Source of the DNA: a virus
Direction: 5' to 3' (one strand)
DNA: 22,272 bases
IMG/VR virus record: IMGVR_UViG_3300044631_000961
Location: 1 to 22,272 of that record
Shown: positions 13,156 to 17,842 of the stretch, in pieces
Layout: each line of letters begins with the position of its first letter
Position numbering within the stretch: position 1 is the stretch's first letter
The notes under the pieces: generated by a model
Database searches by the model: none
Seen by the model: only the letters and a program-made list of their open reading frames with translations
What the model was told of the DNA's origin: nothing
Position numbers and translations under genes: made by a program

Positions 13156-15063
13156 TCAGTCCCAGAAGCTCCCCCCTGACAGCGCTGGCGCGCTGTCATC
13201 CTGCACTTGCGCAGGTCGTGGCACGTCACGCACCGCACTACCGCTTCGCTCCTCATCCCACCGCTCATCGCTCCACCGATCGGCGCCCACCAGCGCCGCC
13301 GCCGCCCGCGCATACACCCTGCAGTCGAGCGCTTCGTTCCTGGGCCTGATCTTCACCCACTCGAACCGGTTGTAGCCTCGGCGGTCGATCGTGTTCGTCA
13401 GCCGCTCGGCGCACAGCTGCCGGAACCACTCTTCGCTATACTGCGGGAAGTGGCACCAGCCGTGCGGCAGCGGCTCGCCGTTGTCAGGCATCGGCCGCCG
13501 CAGCCAGCCGTAGAGCTCAGACTTCGCCGTGCTGCCCCCCACCGGCCAGACCTTCACGCCACCCCTTAACGCCTTGCCGTTTCGCAGCACCTCCACGCGG
13601 CCCGGCGTGCCGATGATTGAGGTCTGGCTGTCCGGGCCGCCCTTGATCGCAATCACACGGTTCCCGGCCTGGCCCCGCACCCACCGGTAGACCTCCTGGC
13701 TCCTAAACCCCGAGTCGATCGCCGTCATTCGGATCGGCAGCCGCTGACCATCGCCGCGGCCAAACTCTGACCGCACGAACTTCGACAGCTCGCGCCACAC
13801 CGCCGGCTGCGCCGTGTCGCCAGCCAGCACCTGATAGTCCAGGCTCCAGCTCTCCATCCCAGGGCCCCAGCCCACGACCTCCAGCTCGAGGCGGTCCATC
13901 TGCGCGTCCACGCCGCACGTGATGAACGCCACCTGCTCAGGCACCGTGCCCAGCTCGTAGAGCTCCCGCCGGTTGTAGAGCGCCTCCCAGTCCGGCGCTT
14001 CGCCATCATCGTTCCAGCACTCCGCCAGCACCGTGTTCGTCCAGGGCTTTAGGTCCGCCGGGTTGTCCTCCGCCTTCTCGTAGCCCACCGCCGCTTCGGT
14101 CCAGCTGAACCACCCGAGCGGGCTGTAGAGCGCCGAGAGGTGGTAGCCCTGCACCTGGCGCTCGGGGTAGGCCGCTTCCCACCAGTCATCGTCGAACACC
14201 TCCGGGTCATACCACCAGGCCTTGGTGTCCTCCTCGATCCCCGCGCCGCATTCCTCGCAGAACAGCACCGGCGGCGTCCGCAGCGTGTTCGGCAGCCCTG
14301 GATCCTTCTTGTCGTAGCTGATCCGGTCCCAGCTGATCACCTGCCGGTGGCCGCAGTGGGGGCAGGGGAGCTTCAGCATCTGCTGGTTGCTCAACTCCCA
14401 CTTCGCCCAGATCGCGCTCCGGCCCGCCACCGTCGGGGTGCTCGTCCACGCCATCTTCTTGCGCACGCCGAAGGTCCGCGTCCGCGCCGTCACGATTGCA
14501 AGCGGGCTCCCTTCCTCATCAACGTCCGCCCGCCAGCGGTCGATCTCATCGCCGCCCAGGTAGCGGATCGGCATCGACGCCAGGCCGCTCGCCGCGTTCG
14601 CGCCGCCCAAGATCAGGAAGCCGCCGACGAACTCCTTCATCAGCATCGTGTTGCCCGAGTCCCGCTCCCGGGGGGCCGCCCCCTTCTCCTGCAAGCTCGG
14701 GCTTGCCTCGATCATCGGCGCAATCCGCATCTTGCTGTAGCGCTTCGCCAGGTCGATCGTCGGCTGCACGAACAGCGCCGGGCCTGGCGCAATGTCCATC
14801 GTGTAACCCATCCAGTTGTTGAGGCTTTCGCTTTTGCCCGTTTGGGCGCCGAACACCATCACCACCTCCTGAACCGTGCTCGTCGCGCTCAGGTCATCCA
14901 TCGGCCGGCGCAGGTACGGCGTCCGGCTTGTTCTCCATGGCCCGTGCTCGCTGCTGGCTTTCGCACTCAGCACCCGCCGTTGATCCGCCCACTCACTCAC
15001 CGTCAGCAGCGGGTCCGGCTCCATTCCCCGGCGGAACGCCAAGCGGCACTCTTCAATCAGCAC
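13156..15063 (-). CDS. terL: Terminase large subunit, lambda gpA family
   Basis: The 635-residue protein (lambda gpA is 641) is the packaging motor and DNA-cutting subunit. Visible motifs: VSEWADQRRVLS at 22-33, Walker A-like GAQTGKSES at 72-80, Walker B DEID at 172-175, coupling motif TSTPT at 207-211, a zinc-binding pair CPHC (234-237) and CEEC (269-272), and nuclease acidic residues at Asp386 (CGVDAQ) and Asp450 (AIDSG). The start is a GTG at 15063 overlapping the small subunit by 11 bases. No strong ribosome site is seen, so coupled translation is likely. The C-terminal 40 residues are polar and probably bind the portal. Confidence 0.95.
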   Translation of the reverse strand: MLIEECRLAFRRGMEPDPLLTVSEWADQRRVLSAKASSEHGPWRTSRTPYLRRPMDDLSATSTVQEVVMVFGAQTGKSESLNNWMGYTMDIAPGPALFVQPTIDLAKRYSKMRIAPMIEASPSLQEKGAAPRERDSGNTMLMKEFVGGFLILGGANAASGLASMPIRYLGGDEIDRWRADVDEEGSPLAIVTARTRTFGVRKKMAWTSTPTVAGRSAIWAKWELSNQQMLKLPCPHCGHRQVISWDRISYDKKDPGLPNTLRTPPVLFCEECGAGIEEDTKAWWYDPEVFDDDWWEAAYPERQVQGYHLSALYSPLGWFSWTEAAVGYEKAEDNPADLKPWTNTVLAECWNDDGEAPDWEALYNRRELYELGTVPEQVAFITCGVDAQMDRLELEVVGWGPGMESWSLDYQVLAGDTAQPAVWRELSKFVRSEFGRGDGQRLPIRMTAIDSGFRSQEVYRWVRGQAGNRVIAIKGGPDSQTSIIGTPGRVEVLRNGKALRGGVKVWPVGGSTAKSELYGWLRRPMPDNGEPLPHGWCHFPQYSEEWFRQLCAERLTNTIDRRGYNRFEWVKIRPRNEALDCRVYARAAAALVGADRWSDERWDEERSGSAVRDVPRPAQVQDDSAPALSGGSFWD

Positions 15064-15625
15064 CGGCCAGGCCCTGCAACGTTTTCACCAGATGCCGCTC
15101 GAGGATCAGCAGCACCTCGGCGCGCTGCTGCTGGCTCATCCCGCCAACAGCTCGGGCGATGTCGCCAATCATCTGCTGCGGTGTCCGGCGAACTGCATCC
15201 CGCACCCGCCGGCCTTCCTCGAACCACACCCGCTCCACATCGGCCTTCGGCACCAGCTGGGCCTGGCGCTCCTTCAGGTCCAGCTCCAGCAGCCGCGCCT
15301 GGTACATGGTCCGCACCGCCGCGGCCTGCGCCTGGCTCGGCACCTTCGGCATCGGCGCATCGGCAGCAGCTGGCGGTGGCGCTGACACCGGCGCACGGGG
15401 TGGGCGGCCGCCTTCGCCCTTGGCACGCCCGCCGCCTTTCTTCTCCCGCTGGAACTGCGGCGCCGTGTTGCGCTGCCATTCCTGATCCGCAATCGCTGGG
15501 TCGATCTTCCACCGCCCGCCGTCGCGGAACGCACCCTGCACCAGCCGTCCAGTCGCAATCGCCTTCCGCACCGCACGGCCACTCACGCCTCGCTGCTGGG
15601 CGTACTCGTCCGGTGTGATCAACAC
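15053..15625 (-). CDS. terS: Terminase small subunit (Nu1-like)
   Basis: The protein has 190 residues (lambda Nu1 has 181). The N-terminal 55 residues form a winged helix-turn-helix of the Nu1 type: LITPDEYAQQRGVSGRAVRK, then GRLVQGAFRDGGRWKID. A Lys/Gly/Pro/Ala-rich linker (about 60-95) leads to a helical assembly region with YQARLLELDLKERQAQLVPK, FEEGRRVRDAVRRTPQQM and a leucine-rich end. It would recognise the packaging site and regulate the large subunit. The start is a GTG overlapping the preceding stop. Confidence 0.85.
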   Translation of the reverse strand: MLITPDEYAQQRGVSGRAVRKAIATGRLVQGAFRDGGRWKIDPAIADQEWQRNTAPQFQREKKGGGRAKGEGGRPPRAPVSAPPPAAADAPMPKVPSQAQAAAVRTMYQARLLELDLKERQAQLVPKADVERVWFEEGRRVRDAVRRTPQQMIGDIARAVGGMSQQQRAEVLLILERHLVKTLQGLAGAD

Positions 15626-15894
15626 AGCTCAACGAAAAACCCAGCGGTCACGAGCTTAGCCGGCCCCGAAGGAATCGGCCGCACCAGCTGGATCGGCGTG
15701 TCGGCGTTCGTCATGCCGCGCACCAGCTCCACCAGCTGGTCGATCAGCATCACCGTGTGGCCGCGGCCCTCCAGCATCTGATCAACCGTCACCTCAGCGC
15801 CCGTGGGCCCGAACTCGATTCGCATCGGCCACGCTCTCACGTGCCCCCGCTCGTCCCACTCACAGCCATATCGGATGCTGGCGACCTCAATCAT
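15619..15894 (-). CDS. Unknown phage protein before terminase
   Basis: The protein has 91 residues. It begins MIEVASIRYGCEWDERGHVR, continues WPMRIEFGPTGAEVTVDQML, and ends LVTAGFFVELC. A strand-rich N-terminal half and a helix LIDQLVELVRGM are predicted by eye; no family is recognised. The ATG at 15894 overlaps the preceding stop by 8 bases (ATGATTGA). A longer reading from 15936 would add an Arg-rich piece lying wholly inside the previous gene, so I reject it. Confidence 0.6.
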   Translation of the reverse strand: MIEVASIRYGCEWDERGHVRAWPMRIEFGPTGAEVTVDQMLEGRGHTVMLIDQLVELVRGMTNADTPIQLVRPIPSGPAKLVTAGFFVELC

Positions 15895-16267
15895 CGAACC
15901 CGGGGACGAACGGACGTGGGCGGCACGCCCCCGCATCCTGCCAGGGCATCAGTACCGCAGTGCCTGGCGTCACCTTCATCACCGAATCCACGCCATGGCT
16001 GGCCGTCATGTCCACCCAGGCCCAGATCACAGCATCAGCACACCGGGACCGGGGCTTGCGCTCAACCAGGCCCCAGAGCAGCAGGGCACCGGCCTGGGGT
16101 CGGGCGGCGCAGGGCACGGCCAGCCGGTCGGCCAGCGCCCAGGCCAGCACTTCGCCGGCCCGGTCCATCCCGCACACCTCTATGCAGTGCCGCGGCGCTT
16201 GCGCGGCGATCACATCAACCGCCGCATCAAGCCCGGCCCAGGTCAGGTGAAGGGTGGGGGAAGTCAT
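15887..16267 (-). CDS. Phosphoribosyltransferase-like protein, probably degenerate
   Basis: The protein has 126 residues from ATG 16267, chosen because GAGAAG lies 7 bases upstream and the ATG forms ATGA with the small frame before it. The fold pattern recalls type I phosphoribosyltransferases: strand HCIEVCGMDRAGEVLAWALA (20-48 area), DRLAVPCAA, then the strand ALLLWGL where a PRPP-binding acidic loop would normally lie, followed by ADAVIWAWVDM and a C-terminal VLMPWQDAG that resembles the FPWE end of such proteins. The acidic PRPP loop (DDIxDTG type) is absent, so catalysis is doubtful. Similar genes occur among phage accessory genes. An unknown binding role is equally possible. Confidence 0.55.
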   Translation of the reverse strand: MTSPTLHLTWAGLDAAVDVIAAQAPRHCIEVCGMDRAGEVLAWALADRLAVPCAARPQAGALLLWGLVERKPRSRCADAVIWAWVDMTASHGVDSVMKVTPGTAVLMPWQDAGACRPRPFVPGFDD

Positions 16268-16362
16268 GCGCGCTTCTCGATCAGCCACCCAGCGAAGTCG
16301 CCAAAACGGAACCACTGATAGGACTCACCGCCGAGCTGGCCTTCGACGATCGGCCGCTCCAC
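16264..16362 (-). CDS. Probable small protein (32 aa) or frameshifted ParB-like tail
   Basis: The reading frame one base behind the ParB-like gene holds a GTG at 16362 and reads MERPIVEGQLGGESYQWF, then RFGDFAGWLIEKRA, to a TGA that forms a perfect ATGA overlap with the next gene. The composition (Trp, Phe, Tyr, charged ends) is far more protein-like than the Ser/Gly-rich end of the ParB frame in the same DNA. It may be a separate small gene, or the true C-terminus of the ParB-like protein reached by a -1 shift or after a base loss near 16352. The GTG has no clear ribosome site. Confidence 0.45.
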   Translation of the reverse strand: MERPIVEGQLGGESYQWFRFGDFAGWLIEKRA

Positions 16363-16880
16363 TCGTAGCCGCAGGACGGGCAGCGGTGGTCGGTCTCGAT
16401 GTCGTCGTCAACCTCGGCGAACTCGTCAGGCGCCTCAGCGTCGTCGATCCCTTCCGGGTCCAGCATTCCTGCAATGTCGTCGTCGCTCCAGCCAAGGAGG
16501 CTCAGGTCGAAGTCCTCGAGGTTGAGGGCCATCACTTCCTGCTGGAGCAGGCTCATGTCCCATCCGGCATTCAGCGCCAACTTGTTGTCGGCCAGCACAT
16601 AGGCCCGCTTCTGCGCCGGGGTCAGGTGGTCGAGCACCACCACGGGAACCTCAGCCATGCCCAGATCCTTCGCCGCTTTCAGCCGGCCGTGGCCCGCCAG
16701 GATCCCGTCGTCGCCGTCCACCAGGATCGGCGCGGTGAAGCCGAACTCCTGAATGCTCGCCTTGATCTGCGCGATCTGATGCGGGCTGTGGGTCCGGGCA
16801 TTGCGCTCGTAGGGGACCAGTCGCTCGACCGGCCACATCTCCAGACGCTTGGCCATGGCTGGCGCTGCTTCTTTGCCCAT
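16281..16880 (-). CDS. ParB-like nuclease-domain protein with C-terminal zinc ribbon
   Basis: The protein has 199 residues. The ParB/Sulfiredoxin-like fold is shown by PVERLVPYERNARTHS (17-32), QIAQIKASIQEFGFTAPILV, the motif box GILAGHGRLKAAKDLGM and VVVLDHLTPAQKRAYVLADN. This subfamily is common in phages and often accompanies DNA methylases or the terminase region; it is not a partition ParB. An acidic linker leads to HRCPSCGYEWSG, half of a zinc ribbon. The last 23 residues are Ser/Gly-rich and look like out-of-frame translation (see the overlapping small frame). A start at the second Met (codon 9) is possible. Confidence 0.82.
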   Translation of the reverse strand: MGKEAAPAMAKRLEMWPVERLVPYERNARTHSPHQIAQIKASIQEFGFTAPILVDGDDGILAGHGRLKAAKDLGMAEVPVVVLDHLTPAQKRAYVLADNKLALNAGWDMSLLQQEVMALNLEDFDLSLLGWSDDDIAGMLDPEGIDDAEAPDEFAEVDDDIETDHRCPSCGYEWSGRSSKASSAVSPISGSVLATSLGG

Positions 16881-17161
16881 GCTTATCCGCTGGATGGAAC
16901 CACAGTAGCGGCGGAACCGGAACCAGGCCGCTGATTCCTGCCTGTTCCTTTCTGCGCAATTTTTGCGCGGATCCCGCCGGAACTGGGGTTTTCAATAACG
17001 GTTGCTATTGAGAAGCCTAGTGTTTGCAAGGGTTCTGGAACCCCGTTTGAAATCTGGCCCTAGCGAAATTTCGGGGCACGGTGGTGCGCAGGCAGGTTGC
17101 GCCAGGGGGAACCAAAGGCGTGCCCCCCCCCCATTCCCCCTCCGAGGGGTTCCGGTTCTGA
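16881..17161 (-). promoter_or_regulatory. Palindrome-rich intergenic region between HNH and ParB-like genes
   Basis: No convincing gene lies here. The 281 bases contain the perfect inverted repeat GCGCAA-TTT-TTGCGC (16954-16968), CAATA...TATTG (16993-17010), GGTTCTGGAACC (17031-17042), the 10-base palindrome CGAAATTTCG (17064-17073), and a run of ten C (17123-17132). An 11-base pair of inverted copies, GAACCGGAACC at 16914-16924 and GGTTCCGGTTC at 17148-17158, brackets the block. It could carry operators, a promoter for the packaging genes, or the packaging (cos) site, which is often near an HNH gene and the terminase. No clear -35/-10 pair stands out. Confidence 0.45.
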
Positions 17162-17842
17162 TCACATCAAGCTGAGCTGCCCGACGGGAACGCGCTGCTT
17201 GCCCAAAATGCGCAGGATGTTGCGCCAACGGGTGTCGGTGAAGAAAGGCTGAGCCCGATACCAAGCTTCGGGATCAAGGTCACGCTTGCGAGAGTTGCAG
17301 TCAATGCAAGCTGGGAGAAAGTTGCCAAGGGCATGAGGGCCCCCCGAAGCAATGGGGATGAAGTGATCGAGGCTCAGATGCTGCTCAGATGCGGAATAGG
17401 CGCAAGAGTTTCCGAATGCCGAAAAGCGATGTTTGAGCTGTTGCTGAGAGACAGGCCATTGGTGAACCTGCTTTTGCCTTGCTCTCCTGTTGGCTTCTTT
17501 GAGCCTCCTGCGTTTACGGTTGCGTTCGCGCTCACGGTCAGGATAAAGGCGTTTCCACTCTTGAAGCCTTGCCTGGCATTTAGCCGTCATCGACCTACGT
17601 TTTCTTGGTTTGCCTTTTTGGCGTTCAAGAATTGCATTCCTGTTCTTTTGGTAAAGAGACGCGGAAAGCTCTGACCTACAGGCTACGCATCGTCCTGTTT
17701 TCTTGTTTCCATGTTTGAGGTAGCGAAGACACAAGCCCGTGTCTTCGTGAAGGTGTCTGCGCTTGCATGGCTTTCCAAGCACATGAAGAGCGGGGTCGAA
17801 TGTGTAAGATTGCGCCATCGCCAGGTAGTTGCTGGTGGTCAT
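17162..17842 (-). CDS. HNH endonuclease
   Basis: The protein has 226 residues. The N-terminal part has a possible zinc site, CKRRH (26-30) with CVAC (52-55). A very basic central segment (75-125, KRRSMTAKCQ, RERERNRKRRR) probably binds DNA. The HNH core is at 147-186: CAYS, then LSLDHFIPIASGG with Asp159-His160, ALGNFLPAC with Asn174, and CIDCNSRKRD. The second cysteine of the first CxxC is replaced by Ser (CAYS). HNH proteins next to terminases assist packaging in some phages, but free-standing HNH genes can also be homing elements. The start is uncertain: ATG 17842 follows an in-frame stop but lacks a ribosome site; ATG 17818 is the alternative. Confidence 0.85.
   Translation of the reverse strand: MTTSNYLAMAQSYTFDPALHVLGKPCKRRHLHEDTGLCLRYLKHGNKKTGRCVACRSELSASLYQKNRNAILERQKGKPRKRRSMTAKCQARLQEWKRLYPDRERERNRKRRRLKEANRRARQKQVHQWPVSQQQLKHRFSAFGNSCAYSASEQHLSLDHFIPIASGGPHALGNFLPACIDCNSRKRDLDPEAWYRAQPFFTDTRWRNILRILGKQRVPVGQLSLM

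Follow-up and report, generated by a model that had tools for sequence, protein, structure and literature searches.

To account for the mosaicism of phages, illegitimate recombination has been put forward, one of two routes discussed in PMC2327257. Scars of such recombination in mosaic phage genomes lie inside coding sequence at a very short shared sequence, with accessory genes being lost while the neighbouring terminase genes stay. The locus described here, in a 22,272-base virus record (hereafter the window, i.e. the whole stretch analysed, which is possibly a fragment), shares these traits and appears no different in kind; its probable remnant keeps a clean open frame and an ATGA overlap, hence its gene-like look. 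A deletion scar is an ordinary event in phage evolution, and a literature search by title or abstract start found nothing on this locus. Among the CmoA-like phage methyltransferases (PHROG 4752 and relatives of TIGR00740), which an intact protein from the related locus L013 matches, the window would keep only the last ~30 codons, the part left uncovered by the matches of the L013 protein to the CmoA structure and to TIGR00740. With phage ParB-like proteins that bear a C-terminal zinc ribbon (PHROG 620) the window shares the ParB_N domain and the motif CPSCGYEWSG, but its protein ends in 23 unrelated residues rather than in KTK or similar.

It is very probable that a frame hidden at the end of this ParB-like gene is the remnant of a methyltransferase gene, fused to it out of frame by a deletion. 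This reading is carried, at the level of sequence, by homology, by the gene order of relatives, by the position of the junction and by the absence of both methylase genes from the record. The frame encodes VERPIVEGQLGGESYQWFRFGDFAGWLIEKRA and a stop on the minus strand at 16362-16264. It is shifted by -1 against the frame of the ParB-like gene and reads GTG GAG CGG CCG ATC ... AAG CGC GCA TGA, or 32 codons plus the stop. Its stop overlaps the start of the next gene (15887-16267) as ATGA at 16267-16264 (minus). Rereading the minus strand bore out the coordinates and sequences given for the frame in an earlier note, including the perfect ATGA that it had described. The features of the locus are as follows.

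16281..16880, minus strand: ParB-like gene (199 aa as it stands), an open reading frame matching Pfam ParB_N (4e-06) and phrog_620 ParB-like (2.6e-61)
16353..16358, minus strand: probable deletion junction at AGCGGC, from the aligned DNA of ParB ends and methyltransferase ends and from L113 and L114
16281..16352, minus strand: probable acquired ParB tail RSSKASSAVSPISGSVLATSLGG and stop, formed by out-of-frame reading of the remnant; lacking in all 38 relatives (of 80) in which a ribbon was recognised
16264..16358, minus strand: probable remnant of a CmoA-like SAM-dependent methyltransferase gene, comprising its last ~30 codons and its stop, by C-terminal homology to full-length relatives
15887..16267, minus strand: next gene, NEXT (126 aa), whose ATG overlaps the methyltransferase stop, an overlap kept in G004 (L113)
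15619..15894, minus strand: small conserved protein MIEV (MIEVASIRYGC.., 91 aa), by tblastn, with matches in 10 of the 80 loci (best 80 of 447)
15053..15625, minus strand: terminase small subunit (TerS), phrog_57 (9.5e-25)
13156..15063, minus strand: terminase large subunit (TerL) of the GpA type, Pfam GpA_ATPase (2.4e-75) and GpA_nuclease (1.2e-89)

NEXT was matched in 16 of the 80 loci (best 80 of 447) and gave no match to Pfam, PHROGs and NCBIfam models; MIEV, searched with 90 of its 91 residues (the first missing), gave none in Pfam and PHROGs. Elsewhere in the window, the ORF at 17162-17842 (minus) looks HNH-nuclease-like by eye, and a run of ten C lies just outside its end, at 17123-17132.

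A scan of IMG/VR with the ParB protein yielded 447 relatives, the best 80 of which were kept as loci. The translated search with the -1 frame peptide, as suggested in the earlier note, matched 13 of these 80 loci at E <= 1e-4 (tblastn), nine at 52.4-58.5 bits and four at 38.5-38.9 bits, while the peptide when shuffled (n=500, same 80 loci) scored at most 27.7 bits; the homology is thus beyond chance. In all 11 loci that were read back, the match was the C-terminus of a long ORF (227-305 codons, stop to stop), for instance the full-length ORF of L013, which begins MDIPSNWTFETPGVAAGFDRHVREQLPWYDLAT and ends in ELSLSGVQRPIIESQLGGPAYLWFKFGDFAGWVIERPAKAPDVC and a stop. The remnant is 78% identical over 32 residues to the methyltransferase of contig G004 (L113) and 66% to that of G006 (L114), these two being longer contigs behind two further loci of the 80. 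The homology is to part of a gene, as the hidden frame matches only the C-terminal ~30 codons of a ~220-aa protein, and the 32-codon peptide alone had no match in Pfam and PHROGs. The whole L013 protein matched Pfam Methyltransf_25/11/12, phrog_4752 'tRNA methyltransferase' (5e-47, residues 2-215) and structures of tRNA (cmo5U34)-methyltransferase (4gek, 1.9e-14, residues 6-187); against the NCBIfam CmoA (carboxy-SAM synthase) equivalog it scored 64.5 bits, below the cut-off of 193.3 bits. By these matches the methyltransferase of the intact relative is CmoA-like, its identity as CmoA itself falling below the cut-off. Most likely, the hidden frame is what is left of the 3' end of a methyltransferase gene still complete in related phages.

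For the ParB-like gene, the 80 retained relatives are 49-81% identical in the best segment, and the codons homologous to them stop at about 16353 (..CPSCGYEWSG), from where the frame runs on through RSSKASSAVSPISGSVLATSLGG (23 residues, among them 8 Ser and 3 Gly) to a TGA at 16283-16281. A C-terminal ribbon (C[PS]xCx[YFH]) was recognised in 38 of the 80 relatives (best 80 of 447), every one of which stops 3-9 residues past the motif, e.g. with EWSGKTK, EFNG or EFDD; the remaining 42 have no ribbon by this pattern and are uninformative on the tail. The tail of the window was found in none of the 38 ribbon-bearing relatives, nor did any of these 38 conserve the ParB ending SSKASSAVSPIS, so that the outcome was the opposite of the one named in the earlier note as refuting its observation. 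As all of them stop so soon after the ribbon, the Ser-rich tail is best read as out-of-frame methyltransferase DNA, and weak tblastn matches (E 0.014-0.067) show RSSKASSAVSPISGSVLATSLGG to resemble the wrong-frame methyltransferase end in L006, L008 and L010. Damage need not be read from the length of a tail alone, since two distant ParB relatives (L116 and L118, 29% identical and outside the 80) have a natural 30-residue tail past the ribbon motif, ending CPSCGYEWSGRAKTHAAPEDDD... and unrelated to that of the window. The ParB_N domain and the CPSCGYEWSG motif are intact in the window, and from this intact core and ribbon it may be judged that the ParB protein probably still works.

The relatives with intact genes hold the missing DNA between the same two neighbours. 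In G004 (the contig behind L014), the order is ParB, C5 methylase, an AsnB-like gene, SAM methyltransferase, NEXT, MIEV, TerS and TerL. The SAM methyltransferase of G004 is 91% identical to that of L013, and its stop overlaps the NEXT start as GCATGAC, the same as in the window, so the perfect ATGA is explained as an inherited overlap. The pair SAM methyltransferase and NEXT is also kept in G006 (behind L017), and G001 (behind L035) keeps it together with MIEV, TerS and TerL. NEXT was present in three of the six contigs searched for it, the other three being short (5.7-7.9 kb), and relatives in which a TerS match directly follows the methyltransferase, without NEXT, include L006, L008, L009 and L013. 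In Moraxella phage Mcat8, ParB, C5 and SAM methyltransferase genes are followed by a short gene and the terminase. Matches to a C5-cytosine DNA methylase were found in at least 33 of the 80 loci and to a SAM-dependent methyltransferase in at least 21 (best 80 of 447), both being lower bounds as many loci end at contig ends or at the chosen flank. The 33 include L016, which has only a 28-codon piece, and 12 methylases at only 31-33% identity; 20 of the 21 loci with the SAM methyltransferase also have the C5 methylase, the exception being L035, where ParB lacks the ribbon and other genes precede the SAM methyltransferase. The AsnB-like gene (L014:4574-5953), which resembles asparagine synthase and lies between the C5 methylase and the SAM methyltransferase, scored 279.1 bits against TIGR01536, above the cut-off of 267.1. 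A gap of similar size was also seen in L003, L004, L005, L015, L017, L034 and L039.

A search of the 22,272-base record at E <= 1e-3 found no C5 methylase, and of the SAM methyltransferase the 5' part, ~185 codons long, was likewise not found; the record is perhaps a fragment, and the missing genes may sit elsewhere in the genome. A scan of genome contigs gave 26 ParB-like loci, with no SAM methyltransferase or remnant at E <= 1e-3 within the fetched flanks. Separately, L086 (BJHE01000012.1, a Cyanobium sp. bin) has the order of the window, i.e. ParB, NEXT, MIEV, TerS and TerL, with TerL 85% identical, and this bacterial genome bin is without either methylase of this type; its gene order may give a hint of the kind of host. 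A distant DNA search against named phages returned 10 records, none of which covers more than 22% of the query. Counted loosely by label, the rows listed comprise four DNA modification methylases, three adenine-specific DNA methyltransferases, one DNA methyltransferase and one ParB-domain protein; three of the ten rows (H41-H43) are one phage, and two records carry no annotation.

The junction is located by the aligned DNA of the two kinds of gene end. ParB reads GTGGAGCGGC at this point, and the methyltransferase end of L002 reads GTGCAGCGGC. ParB ends of aligned relatives read GARTGGAGYGGN and then AAR, methyltransferase ends mostly read GTGCAGCGNCC, with variants in L013, L012, L007 and L042, and the sequence at the junction in the window is GAGTGGAGCGGCCGATC. 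Just ahead of AGCGGC the window has a G, as in ParB, where the nine aligned methyltransferase ends and L113 and L114 have C; because this G is the base of ParB, the crossover can be placed in or right after AGCGGC (16353-16358). The suspicion in the earlier note that something had happened near GGCCGATC was well placed. AGCGGC is complete in one of the nine aligned methyltransferase ends, that of L002, whereas L113 reads AACGGC; that the ancestor shared exactly these six bases is inferred. Exact microhomology does not exceed 6 bp (in L002, 9 of 10 if the flanking GTG is counted; G004 has CAACGGCC), so that the mechanism of deletion is weakly supported. Measured from where WSG ends up to the V codon in VQRP, the spacing in intact relatives is 1,624-1,628 bp (five loci), 2,650 bp (L007) or 2,980 bp (G004), and by arithmetic nine more bases than this spacing were lost, since the two ends overlap in the window. 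Searches of viral contigs for a second copy of the junction gave none with an exact pattern and none with a degenerate one, near-identical records possibly escaping both, and a looser pattern gave three stretches (L116, L117 and L118). None of the query proteins matched the stretch of L117. L116 and L118 were rejected as copies, since their tail differs (RAKTHAAPEDDD..) and both methylases are present, the C5 methylase at 49% and the SAM methyltransferase at 29%.

The ancestor probably carried, in order, the ParB-like gene, a C5-cytosine DNA methylase (possibly with an AsnB-like gene), the CmoA-like SAM methyltransferase, NEXT, MIEV, TerS and TerL. A single deletion of about 1.6-3.0 kb between near-repeats, the ParB ribbon end (GTGGAGCGGC) and a methyltransferase end of the GTGCAGCGGC type, would then have taken the whole C5 methylase and have spared no more than the last ~30 codons of the SAM methyltransferase. 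Which genes were lost is less certain, since L035 has other genes instead of a C5 methylase before its SAM methyltransferase. Illegitimate (microhomology) recombination would be the likely route, a deletion between short shared sequences being the simplest one. By this event ParB would have lost its short KTK-type end and stop and come to read, out of frame, through 23 residues' worth of the remnant. In the frame proper to it, the remnant is without a start and is probably untranslated. GAGAAG, a plausible ribosome-binding stretch, lies in the 3' end of the remnant, five bases before the ATG of NEXT (GAGAGG in G004), and this would account for the deletion not reaching so far. If selection had a part in this, the 3' end was probably retained for GAGAAG and for the stop/start overlap with NEXT. 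The new ParB stop lies 13 nt before the ATG of NEXT, probably close enough for translational coupling.

The age of the deletion may be gauged from the remnant itself. Over 84 bases the remnant differs from G004 at 14 positions, which in the methyltransferase frame fall mostly on third codon positions (3, 3 and 8 at positions 1, 2 and 3). When the protein identity of the remnant to 13 relatives is set against that of ParB, it follows the general trend, with a mean residual of -0.05 (SD of other pairs 0.16); for Mcat8 the comparison was ungapped, so that its identity is understated. Two residues are unlike those of close relatives, a Q in place of L ahead of WF and an R in place of K behind it, the R also occurring in L042. 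The deletion is probably recent, or else the stretch is too short to show decay.

A scar put to use would be a further step, in which the ParB tail couples translation of NEXT to that of ParB and the 23 new residues are tolerated or useful. A single deletion would then have given ParB a new C-terminus and, at the same stroke, the operon a new coupling; we regard this as unlikely.

An improbable alternative is that the junction is an assembly chimera of two phage strains or of two parts of one genome, both methylase genes being present in the actual phage. In favour of it, the window is a virus record and a second contig with its junction was not found. However, the downstream gene order and the ATGA overlap match G004, so only the short junction itself is in doubt, and an overlap of 6 bp is short for an assembly join, assemblers normally needing longer ones. 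In addition, L016 has a truncation of its own in the same interval, though this too is one contig. The junction is probably real in the population.

The two explanations offered in the earlier note fared worse than its observations: a coding -1 frame, a ParB ending that is not genuine protein and an event near the junction all stood, whereas the small gene, the programmed frameshift and the single lost base were rejected on comparison with relatives. An unannotated 32-codon gene translated in its own right from GTG 16362 would fit the open frame, the GTG and the ATGA shared with the next gene, but it is very improbable, as no relative was seen to have these 32 codons as a gene of their own, the 11 read-back matches all being ends of long ORFs with no free-standing short version among them, and the GTG is simply ParB DNA, preceded by CTGCGGCTACGA without an evident Shine-Dalgarno sequence by eye. 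A programmed -1 frameshift, or a lost base, joining ParB to a true C-terminus in the clearly protein-like -1 frame can be dismissed as extremely improbable: none of the 38 ribbon-bearing ParB relatives (of 80) continues into this sequence, the closest ending in EWSGKTK or similar, the sequence belongs to a different full-length protein 1.6-3.0 kb downstream (seven contigs measured), and by eye the junction GAGCGGCCGATC is without the usual slippery heptanucleotide.

Other losses were noted in the same interval. In L016 (744-1104) only the first 28 codons of the C5 methylase are left, with a stop in frame, and the MIEV gene follows directly; a search of this locus for the C5 methylase body, the SAM methyltransferase and NEXT gave no match. 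As judged from its sequence, L016 is an independent scar, and losses in the interval are not unique to the window. In L085 (150-330), only the first ~17 codons of NEXT match, after an apparent end of the C5 methylase ORF (by eye), and past this partial NEXT come short repeats (GTCGGGACCGAGCTCCCC..) and then TerS; this looks like another deletion at the same place, a third case.

The double reading of this stretch would thus be explained as a plain deletion scar, an explanation that averts a false annotation of a small gene or of a frameshift. The interval between ParB and the terminase, as seen in the window, in L016 and, by eye, in L085, appears to be a slot where methylation genes come and go.
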